From: Halosolutus halophilus | GTDB taxonomy: Archaea; Halobacteriota; Halobacteria; Halobacteriales; Natrialbaceae | Reading direction: 5' to 3' | Length of the DNA stretch: 64,000 bases | Assembly (NCBI RefSeq): GCF_022869805.1 | Contig: NZ_CP094974.1 | Span: 4,650,001 to 4,714,000 of the forward strand | In this document: in pieces, positions 9,789 to 57,549 of the stretch | Position numbering within the stretch: position 1 is the first letter of the stretch | How the letters are laid out: each line of letters opens with the position of its first letter | Position numbers and translations under genes: made by a program | The notes under the pieces: model-generated | What the model saw: only the letters and a program-made list of their open reading frames with translations | What the model was told of the DNA's origin: nothing | The model's database searches: none

Positions 9789-9892
9789 GCCGAAGTAGCT
9801 CAGATGGTAGAGCACCTCGCTGTTACGGTGATTCAGGTCATCTGATCGCCGCAGATACGAGGTTGTCCCAGGTTCGAGTCCTGGCTTCGGCG
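9789..9892 (+). tRNA. tRNA-Asn (anticodon GTT) with a 31-nt intron
   Basis: Acceptor GCCGAAG pairs with CTTCGGC and discriminator G. The anticodon loop CTGTTA..A gives GTT. The intron at 9826-9856 sits between positions 37 and 38. A canonical bulge-helix-bulge is visible: the 4-bp helix CTGT (9820-9823)/GCAG (9851-9854), bulges TAC and ATA, and flanking helices CCTCG/CGAGG and GGTGAT/ATCGCC. Removal leaves a 73-nt tRNA. A T-rich terminator (CTTTTATT) follows. Confidence 0.93.
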
Positions 9893-11534: not shown

Positions 11535-11648
11535 GGGCCCTTAGCTCAGTCTGGTAAGAGCGCTCGGCTCATAACGCGGTCCCACGCCCACGATCGTGAG
11601 TCCGTGTGGGATACCGAGTGGTCGATGGTTCGAATCCGTCAGGGCCCA
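11535..11648 (+). tRNA. Elongator tRNA-Met (anticodon CAT) with a 39-nt intron
   Basis: Acceptor GGGCCCT/AGGGCCC with discriminator A. The anticodon arm CTCGG-CTCATA-A-CCGAG gives CAT. The intron spans 11574-11612 in the canonical 37/38 site. The bulge-helix-bulge is clear: helix CTCA (11568-11571)/TGGG (11607-11610), bulges TAA and ATA, and inner helix CGCGG/CCGTG. The mature tRNA is 75 nt. Introns in elongator tRNA-Met are typical of haloarchaea; this one is shorter than the about 75 nt of Haloferax. Confidence 0.93.
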
Positions 11649-39673: not shown

Positions 39674-39747
39674 GGGCTCGTGGTCTAGCTGGTCATGACG
39701 CGGCCTTTACAAGGCCGAGGTCGGCGGTTCGAACCCGCCCGAGCCCA
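39674..39747 (+). tRNA. tRNA-Val (anticodon TAC)
   Basis: 74 nt, acceptor GGGCTCG/CGAGCCC with discriminator A. Anticodon stem CGGCC/GGCCG with loop TTTACAA gives TAC. T-arm GGCGGTTCGAACCCGCC. No intron. The last 21 bases recur twice downstream. Confidence 0.95.
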
Positions 39748-39847
39748 TATTCCTGCCGCGAACAACTCGTGAGCGGCAGAAATATGCCGCGAGAGGCGGT
39801 TCGAAGTAGACGAGACGCGCACAGCGAAGCGAGCACGTCTCGGCGTA

Positions 39848-39868
39848 GTTCGAACCCGCCCGAGCCCA
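39848..39868. repeat. Copy of the tRNA-Val 3' end (att-like), exact
   Basis: 21 bases identical to tRNA-Val 39727-39747 (GTTCGAACCCGCCCGAGCCC then A). Both tRNA and copy are followed by a similar hairpin (CTGCCGC...GCGGCAG at 39753-39779; CTGTCGC...GCGATAG at 39874-39900). Confidence 0.85.
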
Positions 39869-39900
39869 CTTTGCTGTCGCGAACGATCCGTGAGCGATAG

Positions 39901-39921
39901 GGTCGAACCCGCCCGGGCCCA
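39901..39921. repeat. Second copy of the tRNA-Val 3' end, two mismatches
   Basis: GGTCGAACCCGCCCGGGCCC then A. Third member of the tandem 3'-end series, immediately before the methyltransferase gene. Confidence 0.75.
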
Positions 39922-40052
39922 CGATCGGACCGATCGGCGATCGGTGAACGGGCAAATCGCGATCGATGGCCGAGCAGCGCACGATCGTGAGCGGGCCGAC
40001 CCTGCACCGCCGATGCCCCACGTTGATATGCGATCCGTGTGTCTGCCGACAC

Positions 40053-43000
40053 GTGACCCAGCAGCGGATTACTGCGGCGGACGTCCGGGGATGGACTTCG
40101 CTCCGGGATATCGCGGACGCGCTCGCGAAGCGTGGTCTCGAGTTCCGATCGACGCCCGGCGAGCGGACGCGCCTCGGGTGCCACGTTGCCGACGAGTTTT
40201 TCGGCCTCGTCGAAGCGGGGCCGGGCGAGTCGCCGTCGGAGTGCGGGCCCGAGCGCCGCGGTCGGCGGACGCATCTCGTCGCGACCCACGACTTCGAGTC
40301 GTTCACGTTCGTCACGCGGGATCGACGGAGGGCCGACCAGCAGCACGGTCGCATCACGTACCGGACGCTCACGTTCACGAAGGAGCAGTTCGGACGGGAG
40401 TGTGCGGAGACGGACGCGATCCTCGAGCGACTCAATGCGATCGAGGACGACTCGTCGACGGGGACGGGGGTCGCCGAGGCGCTCTTCGACACGCGAGCAG
40501 TCGTCGAGGCGTTCGCCCGACAGTTCGAGGCGTTACGGACCGACCTCGTGCAGGCGGTCGCTGGCATCCCGGACGATCGTGGCGACGCGAAGCGGCGATA
40601 CGTCCAGGTCGTTCTCGATCGGCTGCTCTTCCTCTCCTTTCTCCAGGCGAAGGGGCTGCTCGACGGGGACGAACGGTATCTCCACGAACGGCCCGCGACC
40701 GTCGTCGACGAGGGCGACGATCGGTACGAAGCGTTCTATCGGCCGCTCTGCTTCGACTATCTCGCGACGGACGATCAGGACCCTGCGTTCGGTACGCTCC
40801 CGCATCTCGACGGCGGGTTGTTCGCCGAGAGTCCGGTCGAACGGGAGTTCGACGACGCCAAACTGGGCGAGACACCGGCGGAGACCAACGCACTCTTCGA
40901 CGACGTGCTCGCGTTCCTGTCCGACTGGGAGTGGGACGTCGACGAACGGCTCGCCGTCGCTGGCCCGAAGACCCTCTCTCCGGCGATCCTGGGGCACATC
41001 TACGAGCAGACGGTCACCCAGAAGGACCTGGGCGCGTACTACACGCCCACGGAGATCACCGGCTTCATGGCGCGCCGGACGATCCATCCCTCCCTCGTCG
41101 ATCGGCTCAACGAGACCGTCGAGGCGGACTACGAGTCGATCGACGACGTCTTCGGCTTCACCGGGGACGGAGCCAGTGACGCCGACCCGATCGCAGACAG
41201 CGGAGCGACGACACCCCCGGTCCCGATCGAGACGGTGACGCCGGCTCACGTCGAGACGCTCTATCACGACGTGCTGATGGACACGCGAGTCCTGGATCCG
41301 GCAGTCGGGAGTGGGGCGTTCTTGCTCGCTGCCCAGGAGGTGTTGCTGGACGTCTCGGTGCAGTGTCTCGAGTTCTTCCGGCGACTCGACCGCGAGGGGC
41401 GCGGCCGGGACCTCGACGCCCGAACCCGGGACGAACTGGCGGCGATCGAATCCGGTGCGGGGAGCGTCTCGTTGTACGCGAAGCGGGCGATCGTTCGCAA
41501 CGCCCTCTACGGCGTGGACGTCGACGACGGGGCGGTCGAGATCTGTAAGCGCCGCCTCTGGCTGTCGATGGTCGCGGACATCGAAGGCGATCCGGGTGAC
41601 GTCGAACCGCTGCCCGACGTCGACGCCAGTATTCGACAGGGGAACTCCCTCGTCGGGGTCACCGACCTCGTCGACGACCGGGACGGGGGCGCGCCGCTCA
41701 CGATCGACGGGGGCGAGGCCGGCGAGAGCGCCCGGGACACGGTGGCGGCGCCCGTCGAGGACGAGGCGATCGATCGGGCCGAGACGACGGAGGGCGACGA
41801 GAGCGCCCGGCGCGAAGCGGCAGCGCGTCGACTGTTCTCGTCCCGCGAGGAATTCGACGACCGAGTGCTGGCGGACTTCCACGACGCGGGCATCGAGGAC
41901 TTCACGCGTGACGACCTCGCGGACCACTCCCCGTTTCACTGGCCGCTCGAATTTCCGGCGGTGTACGCCGAGGGCGGCTTCGACGTCGTCATCGGCAATC
42001 CGCCCTGGGACGTCGTCGCACCCAACCGAGAGGAGTACTTCACGACGTTCGACGAACTGTTTCGAACGCGGCCGCCGTCCGAGAAAGACGCCGTCCAGGA
42101 GCGACTCCTGGCCGACCCGTCGATCGCCGCCGGATGGGAGGCGTACCAGGAGAAAATGGCGACCCGCGCAGCGTACTTCAACGGCAGTTCGCAGTACGTC
42201 CTCCAGAACCCCGACGTCGGCGGGAGCGCCGTTGGGAACGAGAACGACCTCTCGATGCTGTTCCTGGAGCGCGTCTTCGAGGTGGCGAACGACGAGTCCT
42301 ACGTAGCCCAGATCCTTCCGGGGACCGTCTTCGTCGGGGCGGCAGGGGCGGACCTTCGAACGCACCTGCTGGACGCGACGACGCTCCAGCAGGTCGTCCT
42401 GTACGAGAACCGGGGTATCTTTCCGGACGTCGATACCCGGTACAAGTTCGGAATCGCCGTGTGCAAGAACAGCGGCCGCACCGAGCGATTCGAGACGATC
42501 TACCGGAGCGGCGACCTCGACGTGCTGGGACGCATCGACGAGTCGGCTGTCACCGTCCCCCGGGAGGTCCTGACCGAGTACTCGCCGAGTACGGGCCTGT
42601 TCCCGTTGCTCGAATCGGCGGCGCAGGTCGCGGTCCTCCGCACGCTCGTCGACCATCCACCGCTGGGCGACGACTCCCAGGGGTGGACGGTGACCCCGTA
42701 CCGGGAACTCGATCGCAACCAGGATCGGGACCGCTACGTCGAATCCGAAGCCGAGGGCGAGTACCCGGTCTACGGCGGGTCGAACGTCTACCAGTACAGT
42801 TACTCACCCGACGTCGTCGAGGACCTGGACGCACCGACGCTGTGGAGCGTCGGCGAAGACCGCGACCCGGAGCGCAGCGCCAAACGACGGATCCGGGAGA
42901 AAGCGTTCCGGTCGCGCGACCCCGAGATGGGACTCAAGAAGGCTATCTACGAGGCGTTCGACGGGACGGGGTCACAGAAGGCGTTCGTGAACGACCTCCT

Positions 43001-43676
43001 CGAACGGGAACGCGGGAAACCGCTCTCGCCCGACGACGTCAAACTCGACTGCAGCGCGTACCGCATCGTCTTCCGGAACATCACGAACTCGACGAACGAG
43101 CGGACGATGATCTGTGCGGTGGTTCCGAAGGGGGTCGTCTGCCACCACGCACTCAATACGATTCGTCCCTACACGTTCGATATCGATCGATCGGACCTCT
43201 CGGACGACCCGCTCCACTCGGTCTACGAACGGGTGTTCACCGATCGCGAACTGTTCGCGGCGCTCGGTCTCCTGAACAGTCTGCCGTTCGACTACCTGAT
43301 GCGGACGAAGATCGAGGAGAACCTCGTTATGTACAAGTTGACCGAATCCCAGGTGCCGCGACTGACCGCGGGCGACGACTGGTTCGAGTACATCTCGACC
43401 CGCGCGGCGCGTCTCAACTGCTACGGGGCGGCCTTCGCGGAGATGCGCGATCGGCTCGGCGGTATCGACCCGGTGACGGACGCGGAGACCCGAACCGAAC
43501 TGCAGGCCGAGATCGACGCGGCGGCCTGCCACGCCTACGGACTCACTCGGCGTGACGCGGCCTTCGTCCGCGACTCCTTCCACCGGGTTTCGTCACCCCG
43601 GATCATGACGGACGCGTACTTCGAACTGGTGGGGACGAAATACGATCGACTCGAGTCGGCGGACCCCGTTCCCTAA
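40053..43676 (+). CDS. Eco57I-type N6-adenine DNA methyltransferase, possibly type IIG
   Basis: 1207 residues from GTG 40053 (an ATG at 39966 would add 29 unnatural residues). The start TQQRITAADVRGWTSLRDIA is helical. LLFLSFLQAKGLLDGD and IYEQTVTQKDLGAYYTPTEI are family hallmarks. SAM motif I is VLDPAVGSGAFLLAA (about 413), motif IV is VIGNPPWDVV (about 645). The C-terminal third (PVYGGSNVYQYSY, NSLPFDYLMRTKIEENL) is a target-recognition domain. It methylates adenine in a specific site. An N-terminal nuclease, needed for type IIG action, is not clear, and no separate restriction gene lies nearby. It follows the tRNA-Val 3'-end series, so probably arrived as an island. Confidence 0.9.
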   Translation: MTQQRITAADVRGWTSLRDIADALAKRGLEFRSTPGERTRLGCHVADEFFGLVEAGPGESPSECGPERRGRRTHLVATHDFESFTFVTRDRRRADQQHGRITYRTLTFTKEQFGRECAETDAILERLNAIEDDSSTGTGVAEALFDTRAVVEAFARQFEALRTDLVQAVAGIPDDRGDAKRRYVQVVLDRLLFLSFLQAKGLLDGDERYLHERPATVVDEGDDRYEAFYRPLCFDYLATDDQDPAFGTLPHLDGGLFAESPVEREFDDAKLGETPAETNALFDDVLAFLSDWEWDVDERLAVAGPKTLSPAILGHIYEQTVTQKDLGAYYTPTEITGFMARRTIHPSLVDRLNETVEADYESIDDVFGFTGDGASDADPIADSGATTPPVPIETVTPAHVETLYHDVLMDTRVLDPAVGSGAFLLAAQEVLLDVSVQCLEFFRRLDREGRGRDLDARTRDELAAIESGAGSVSLYAKRAIVRNALYGVDVDDGAVEICKRRLWLSMVADIEGDPGDVEPLPDVDASIRQGNSLVGVTDLVDDRDGGAPLTIDGGEAGESARDTVAAPVEDEAIDRAETTEGDESARREAAARRLFSSREEFDDRVLADFHDAGIEDFTRDDLADHSPFHWPLEFPAVYAEGGFDVVIGNPPWDVVAPNREEYFTTFDELFRTRPPSEKDAVQERLLADPSIAAGWEAYQEKMATRAAYFNGSSQYVLQNPDVGGSAVGNENDLSMLFLERVFEVANDESYVAQILPGTVFVGAAGADLRTHLLDATTLQQVVLYENRGIFPDVDTRYKFGIAVCKNSGRTERFETIYRSGDLDVLGRIDESAVTVPREVLTEYSPSTGLFPLLESAAQVAVLRTLVDHPPLGDDSQGWTVTPYRELDRNQDRDRYVESEAEGEYPVYGGSNVYQYSYSPDVVEDLDAPTLWSVGEDRDPERSAKRRIREKAFRSRDPEMGLKKAIYEAFDGTGSQKAFVNDLLERERGKPLSPDDVKLDCSAYRIVFRNITNSTNERTMICAVVPKGVVCHHALNTIRPYTFDIDRSDLSDDPLHSVYERVFTDRELFAALGLLNSLPFDYLMRTKIEENLVMYKLTESQVPRLTAGDDWFEYISTRAARLNCYGAAFAEMRDRLGGIDPVTDAETRTELQAEIDAAACHAYGLTRRDAAFVRDSFHRVSSPRIMTDAYFELVGTKYDRLESADPVP

Positions 43677-43780: not shown

Positions 43781-44227
43781 TCAGTGCTTGAGTCGCGCGA
43801 CGTTCTCGCGAATCTGACCGAGTAGTCCTTCCTCGGACTCGGCTTCGAGGGCGGTGTGCAGCGTCGAATTCTCCGGTTCGTCCTTGACCACGACGCGGAG
43901 GTACGGTTCGAGTTGTTCGAAGTTGTCCGCGAGCACGACGGTGTGGTTCTCCTCGTCGTGATCGACGACGCCGGAGTCGGCGAGTTTCGGGACGTGACAC
44001 TGGACGGACGAGACGTAAACGCTCTTGTACTCGTTTTTCGCGACCTCGTCAGGCGGGACGTCGTGTTCCCAGCCCGCGACCTGTTCGGCGATCGTCGACA
44101 GCTCGATCGGGCCGTCTTGCCCCCTGAGGGCGTAGAGGAGATACCGCCGGCGTCGATTCGCCAGGAGTTCGAGGATGGTGTCGGCCGAGAGTTCGGTCTC
44201 TCCCTCGTCCGAGGCAAGTGCTTCCAT
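43781..44227 (-). CDS. DUF7344-type winged-helix protein
   Basis: 148 residues. LSADTILELLANRRRRYLLY is the classic opening of haloarchaeal DUF7344 winged-helix regulators, followed by IELSTIAEQVAG, EYKSVYVSSVQCHVPKLADSG (recognition helix) and GVVDHDEENHTVVLAD (wing). The last 40 residues are a helical extension. Predicted DNA-binding transcription factor, targets unknown. It is convergent with the methyltransferase gene, which ends 105 bases away. Confidence 0.8.
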   Translation of the reverse strand: MEALASDEGETELSADTILELLANRRRRYLLYALRGQDGPIELSTIAEQVAGWEHDVPPDEVAKNEYKSVYVSSVQCHVPKLADSGVVDHDEENHTVVLADNFEQLEPYLRVVVKDEPENSTLHTALEAESEEGLLGQIRENVARLKH

Positions 44228-44448: not shown

Positions 44449-44522
44449 GCCGCCTTAGCTCAGACTGGGAGAGCACTCGACTGAAGATCGAGCTGTCCCC
44501 GGTTCAAATCCGGGAGGCGGCA
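44449..44522 (+). tRNA. tRNA-Phe (anticodon GAA)
   Basis: 74 nt, acceptor GCCGCCT/AGGCGGC and discriminator A. Anticodon arm CTCGA-CTGAAGA-TCGAG gives GAA. T-arm CCCGGTTCAAATCCGGG. No intron, no encoded CCA, and no copied 3' end seen nearby. Confidence 0.95.
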
Positions 44523-57455: not shown

Positions 57456-57479
57456 GTCCGGGTGCGAGAATCGAACCCG
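57456..57479. repeat. 24-bp copy of the tRNA-His 3' end
   Basis: Identical to 57550-57573, the 3' end of minus-strand tRNA-His, and placed on its 3' side. Only 70 bases separate the copies. A remnant attachment site after loss of an integrated element is likely. Confidence 0.8.
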
Positions 57480-57549
57480 ACTGCGAGACCCGCTCACGCT
57501 CGTCTCGCGTTCCGGCTTTTCCGCTCCTCGTGGTACTCGTCGCGAAAAA

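Follow-up and report, generated by a model that had tools for sequence, protein, structure and literature searches.

The tRNA-Val(TAC) gene of Halosolutus halophilus is followed by two further copies of its own 3' end, and directly behind these lies a giant methyltransferase gene. The locus raises the question of what the copies are, and of whether they mark the border of a genomic island. The window analysed here is a 64,000-nt stretch, positions 4,650,001 to 4,714,000 of a 5.06-Mb single-contig genome. The repeated 21-mer, GTTCGAACCCGCCCGAGCCCA, comprises the last 21 nt of the tRNA (39727–39747) and lies inside the gene. A sequence-only reading of the window had reported an exact second occurrence at 39848 and a third, differing at two positions, at 39901, the first two occurrences each being trailed by a similar hairpin. 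Genome search and shuffling confirm these copies: dinucleotide shuffles of the window gave a mean of 0.02 matches to the 21-mer at up to 3 mismatches, and three matches were reached in 0 of 100 shuffles. The whole-genome search found no occurrence with up to 2 mismatches beyond the tRNA-Val locus; at up to 3 mismatches the rest of the genome held two matches, each differing at 3 positions, at distances of 31 kb and 236 kb. The hairpins were likewise borne out, the 49-nt stretches starting at 39727 and 39848 being 86% identical. Tandem tRNA pseudogenes were considered and ruled out because nt 53–73 alone are copied and the 5' part of the tRNA is missing from the copies. Each copy terminates a structured non-coding unit.

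A full unit spans about 100–145 nt and consists, in order, of a hairpin A, an inverted T-loop and T-stem segment, a hairpin B and the direct copy of nt 53–73. Unit 1 of the tRNA-Val array has all of these parts in 121 nt, and the truncated unit 2 has hairpin A and the copy in 53 nt (39869–39921). Folding of unit 1 (RNAfold, −56.2 kcal/mol) predicts two strong hairpins, with pairing of the inverted and direct copies closing the second. Since these two copies can pair in the model, hairpin B would cap a stem resembling a T-arm. At their length, the non-coding units leave no room for genes. No Rfam family matches the array, and no K-turn or box C/D element was seen by eye in the folded units. The neighbouring genes encode DUF192, ABC transporter, methyltransferase and DUF7344 proteins.

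Features of the tRNA-Val array and associated elements (window coordinates)
Feature	Position	Strand	Basis
tRNA-Val(TAC), host gene; nt 53–73 (39727–39747) are the copied block	39674..39747	+	ARAGORN, Rfam
Unit 1, hairpin A with GA/GA internal loop	39748..39784	+	RNAfold
Unit 1, inverted T-loop and part of T-stem, GGCGGTTCGAA; predicted to pair with direct copy	39795..39805	+	Sequence comparison, RNAfold
Unit 1, variable hairpin B cassette	39806..39847	+	RNAfold, cassette comparison
Unit 1, direct copy of tRNA-Val nt 53–73, exact	39848..39868	+	Sequence search
Unit 2 (truncated), hairpin A; no inverted segment, no hairpin B	39869..39900	+	Locus comparison
Unit 2, direct copy of tRNA-Val nt 53–73, two changes	39901..39921	+	Sequence search
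Type IIG-like restriction-methyltransferase (Eco57I family), neighbour outside all tRNA-end copies	39966..43676	+	Pfam, PADLOC, locus comparison
DUF7344 gene, neighbour; usual gene 3' of the tRNA-Val array in relatives	43781..44227	-	Pfam, locus comparison
tRNA-His unit of the same kind in this window; exact copy of tRNA-His block at 57456–57476	57456..57549	-	Sequence comparison

The copies had been read as the footprint of repeated integration at the tRNA, with the methyltransferase as part of an island. The first half of this reading survives as repeated duplication of the 3' end, for which targeted insertion or exchange is plausible; the link between an island and the methyltransferase does not. 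The duplicated block, running from the T-loop to the 3' end, does resemble the identity blocks of tRNA-directed integrases, and the methyltransferase adjoins the array both here and in the relative G002. These are, however, the only two among 30 tRNA-Val loci where it does so. A further copy of the 21-mer past the methyltransferase, proposed as the far end of the island, was sought across the genome and is absent, so the methyltransferase is unbounded. The earlier reading had also reported no visible integrase, and a Pfam scan of the seven neighbouring proteins agrees; the locus thus has neither a second tRNA end at a far border nor an integrase in the seven scanned neighbours. Comparison with relatives gave tRNA-Val arrays that lack the methyltransferase, and the other close homologues found in the relatives searched sit at unrelated loci. 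The two observations that the sequence-only reading had named as telling against it were therefore both made. For these reasons we reject an island carrying the methyltransferase as cargo, and regard repeated island integration at tRNA-Val as highly improbable, the more so as uniform small units stand behind dozens of tRNAs.

The gene order around the array points the same way. A DUF7344 gene lies within about 1.5 kb of tRNA-Val in about two thirds of the 30 loci. In many relatives, including the congener G001, the array is followed by this gene, which here stands behind the methyltransferase. Because DUF7344 is near the tRNA in most loci, the methyltransferase looks like an unrelated later insertion beside an older array, a neighbour and not its cargo. 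It is present at the tRNA-Val locus in two of three sampled congeners. In G002 the homologue is reported as two pieces, one with an internal TGA (G002:C1:1066460-1070032).

A genuine element elsewhere in the H. halophilus genome has another appearance, being about 25 kb long and carrying an integrase. For the tRNA-Arg gene at G000:4498256-4498359, 14 nt of the end are repeated at 4523361, some 25 kb away. A tyrosine integrase gene lies just before this copy (Pfam 2.2e-8; L223:11261-12313; loci L222, L223 and L177), and a degenerate hairpin unit follows closely behind the copy. The element (G000:C1:4498256-4523361) is apparently a real integration that parted the tRNA from its unit. Duplicated tRNA 3' ends in haloarchaea should hence not be taken as island borders without further evidence.

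The arrangement is not peculiar to tRNA-Val. Surveying the genome tRNA by tRNA for downstream copies (up to 3 mismatches in 21 within 400 nt), we found that 11 of 43 tRNAs in H. halophilus have their own 3' end repeated 3' of the gene. In the relative G022 the figure is 31 of 46, with exact copies at 24 of the 46. Each such tRNA has one to three units. Ends of other tRNAs match in 0.1–0.2% of comparisons, an upstream control gave one match per genome, and none of 5000 permutations reached the observed fit of downstream copies to their own tRNA. One or more units follow tRNA-Val at 28 of 30 loci examined, that of H. halophilus included; at one of these (L019) the unit is 71 nt long and lacks hairpin B. 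A diagnostic pattern, GGATTTGAA-N25..55-GTTCAAATCC, was found in 52 of 61 genomes of a first sample. In a phylum-wide draw, 43 of the 53 genomes related at the level of the order (Halobacteriales) or more closely carried it, as opposed to 0 of the 242 other Halobacteriota (class counts tallied by hand from the result table), and the reversed pattern used as control gave zero throughout. A tRNA-Ile/Pro-type pattern was found among named genomes in five stretches only (Natrinema, Haloarcula and a Natrialbaceae MAG), which are too few to describe a distribution; it is from these named loci that the order was judged to be Halobacteriales.

We next consider what is copied. In 188 copies, the edges of the block are sharp at nt 52/53 and 73/74. 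Identity per tRNA position is 0.91–1.0 over nt 53–72 and 0.85 at nt 73, falling to 0.74 at nt 52 and to at most 0.51 at nt 49–51 and from nt 74 onward; the interior values are inflated because the copies were chosen at up to 3 mismatches within the block, and it is the edges that are informative. Some of these loci were fetched by their match to the unit pattern; the tRNA surveys of H. halophilus and G022 were made independently of it. The block thus takes in the T-loop, the discriminator base and the 3' strands of both T-stem and acceptor stem. After the copies, CCA falls outside the twelve commonest trinucleotides, and copying from mature tRNA by reverse transcription is for this reason not favoured.

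The inverted segment also follows its host. Over 54 units from two genomes it differs from the T sequence of its own host by a mean of 2.98 mismatches in 13 and from those of other hosts by 4.20, and 0 of 10000 permutations gave as good a fit. Watson–Crick pairing of the segment reaches 85–100% at nt 54–61 and is partial at nt 62–65. Unusual T-loops such as TTCAATTC (Gly-CCC and His) have corresponding inverted segments.

The folded units contain recurrent non-canonical motifs. In hairpin A, 59 of 92 units show a symmetric GA/GA internal loop on the tRNA-sense strand, and a single unit shows TC/TC. Among the 2×2 loops of 122 folded units, GA/GA leads by a wide margin (200 cases), and 59 of 102 apical triloops in the same 122 units are GNA. 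Hence it is the tRNA-sense strand that holds the conserved non-canonical motifs, whether as RNA or as single-stranded DNA.

Functional RNA is one alternative. The units may be 3' trailers of pre-tRNA, concerned with RNase Z processing or termination, or small RNAs like RrA/B/F of E. coli, with the copies kept by selection and not by mobility. The sense-strand GA/GA loops fit this account, as do the order-wide spread, the constant order of parts and the fact that copies end at the mature tRNA 3' end; RrA/B/F of the E. coli rRNA operons are indeed transcribed and processed (PMC8144298). Yet G–U pairs are no commoner on the sense strand of the units (145 sense versus 161 antisense), unlike in tRNAs (53 versus 23), and these counts do not speak for selection on RNA. 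Moreover, related species can differ in whether a given tRNA has a unit. We consider a functional RNA possible while leaning against it as the explanation, and it is compatible with the insertion of cassettes.

Comparison of loci shows how the units change. Each fits its own tRNA; units form tandem stacks, degenerate and disappear, and the same tRNA occurs with and without a unit in related species. Within another genus, 26 of 29 species have tRNA-Val units, whose A and B hairpins vary between species; of the three in which none was detected, two (L194 and L206) look degenerate and one (L211) has nothing recognisable. Near-identical B cassettes stand behind different tRNAs: 9 of 79 cassette clusters cover two or more hosts. 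A 51-nt cassette of tRNA-Ile in H. halophilus is found also behind tRNA-Gly(GCC) and tRNA-Gly(TCC) in other genera, and CCCTATCAGTCGCGCGCAGCGAAGCGAGCACGTCTGATTTC occurs behind Val and also behind Cys and Phe. The direct and inverted copies that flank shared cassettes remain specific to the host. On this comparative evidence, hairpins appear to be exchanged while the tRNA-derived parts fit the host; cassettes common to different hosts, together with turnover between species, suggest that exchange or insertion acts at the tRNA. In one tRNA-Val array (L214, G355), a 176-nt unit has extra hairpins in the middle of hairpin B, which looks like the insertion of one cassette into another.

Neutral tandem duplication would account for part of this picture. 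Unequal recombination or slippage would copy the tRNA end with its trailer hairpin, and gene conversion and quasi-palindrome correction would keep the copies alike. Two adjacent identical 118-nt units at one locus (L008), tandem stacking and truncated units are what such a process would leave. It fails, however, to explain one architecture behind dozens of different tRNAs or near-identical B cassettes behind different hosts, and correction would remove the GA/GA loops, which persist. We judge this account quite unlikely.

Our preferred mechanism, to which we give somewhat less than an even chance, is insertion or exchange of hairpin cassettes at T-loops. The T-loop half of a tRNA gene would be the site where non-coding cassettes enter or replace one another. 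Duplication of the 3' block would keep the tRNA whole, much as happens with tRNA-directed site-specific elements. The insertion machinery would be encoded elsewhere, and the units may also act as structured trailers of the pre-tRNA. Several considerations stand against cassette insertion. Gene conversion could also spread cassettes between tRNAs, and so could homologous import of entire tRNA regions. Simple insertion with target duplication does not account for an inverted segment that is specific to its host; this needs selection for pairing or some copying step. No recombinase could be linked to the units, nor did any insertion event come to light between sister strains.

A more specific form of cassette insertion is a single-stranded-DNA system in Halobacteriales, in which the sense strand would fold through GA/GA pairs and GNA loops and a putative recombinase would swap cassettes at tRNA T-loops. 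GNA and GNNA loops occur in unusually stable DNA mini-hairpins (PMC4686876). In a plain scan of stems with 2-bp stems, GNA loops made up 14% against a background of 6%; because this enrichment is weaker than in the folded units, the argument for single-stranded DNA is suggestive only, and we think the system unlikely.

We then asked whether such units resemble known repeats. Knowledge of tRNA-linked repeats (TLRs) in E. coli goes back to 1978. Like the archaeal units, those of E. coli (the RttR repeats of tyrT/tyrV, the argVYZQ repeats and RrA/B/F) are non-coding, folded and placed directly behind a stable-RNA gene. They too stand in tandem, with one to five repeats per locus against one to three units per tRNA here. 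The repeat ends in the 3' end of its own gene, over 18–19 bp there and 21 here. These 18–19 bp are identical to the 3' end of the upstream gene, and the repeats have no known function (PMC8144298). There are also differences: in E. coli the copy includes the encoded CCA and begins later in the T-loop, and the units are 133–178 nt long. E. coli K-12 has 22 TLRs at ten loci (PMC8144298), as opposed to up to 31 of 46 tRNAs in the haloarchaeal genomes surveyed.

The likeness extends to the internal order of parts. In the tyrV repeats (L186, tyrT/tyrV), GGGGAAGGAT is reverse-complementary to ATCCTTCCCC in the direct copy, with hairpins between them, and in an argV repeat (L227, argVYZQ) GGGAGGAT is the inverted partner of ATCCTCCC, again with hairpins between. 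The other E. coli arg units have no exact inverted match of at least 7 nt, and their folds pair the corresponding parts. The word 'inverted' is absent from the TLR paper (PMC8144298). Given the inverted partners in tyrV and argV, the order of parts is common to the E. coli tyr and argV repeats and the archaeal units, as a likeness of arrangement and without shown sequence homology. Given this common arrangement, the single-stranded-DNA system set out above might perhaps extend to the lineage of E. coli TLRs.

We regard the locus as very probably an array of TLR-type repeats. That the units are archaeal tRNA-linked repeats and that they undergo host-specific exchange is, taken jointly, likely. 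Such an archaeal counterpart is apparently undescribed in archaea: a literature search, with most subscription journals outside its reach, found no description, which is absence of evidence only. An archaeal order with the TLR arrangement behind up to two thirds of its tRNA genes is a large comparative data set, and its tRNA-specific direct and inverted copies, together with the shared hairpins, allow the nature and spread of these repeats to be asked.

Three further kinds of element invite comparison. Integron cassette arrays (attC) likewise have an inverted core, a variable hairpin and a direct core, stand in tandem and exchange parts; their arrangement is analogous to that of the archaeal units, an analogy by general description and not by core sequence. 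Unlike integron cassettes, those of the archaea are gene-free and their core follows the host tRNA, and no integron integrase (IntI) was found among the seven scanned neighbouring proteins. Palindrome-associated transposable elements (PATEs) of haloarchaea are also small, non-coding and palindromic, but they are larger than the units and dispersed, have IS200/IS605-like ends and are not known to be tied to tRNA 3' ends. Elements integrated at tRNAs by tyrosine recombinases (archaeal integrases, PMC8371274) also duplicate the 3' part of the tRNA, leave the tRNA intact and can stack in tandem. They differ in carrying genes, usually including an integrase, whereas the archaeal units are non-coding, about 100–145 nt long and equipped with an inverted copy of the core.

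Two smaller observations concern other tRNA genes of the window. The neighbouring tRNA-Phe (44449–44522) is without a unit here, but such units are common in relatives, with 28 behind tRNA-Phe recorded in the scanned loci. The tRNA genes at 9789–9892 and 11535–11648 are recognised by Rfam and not by ARAGORN at default settings, and probably bear introns.
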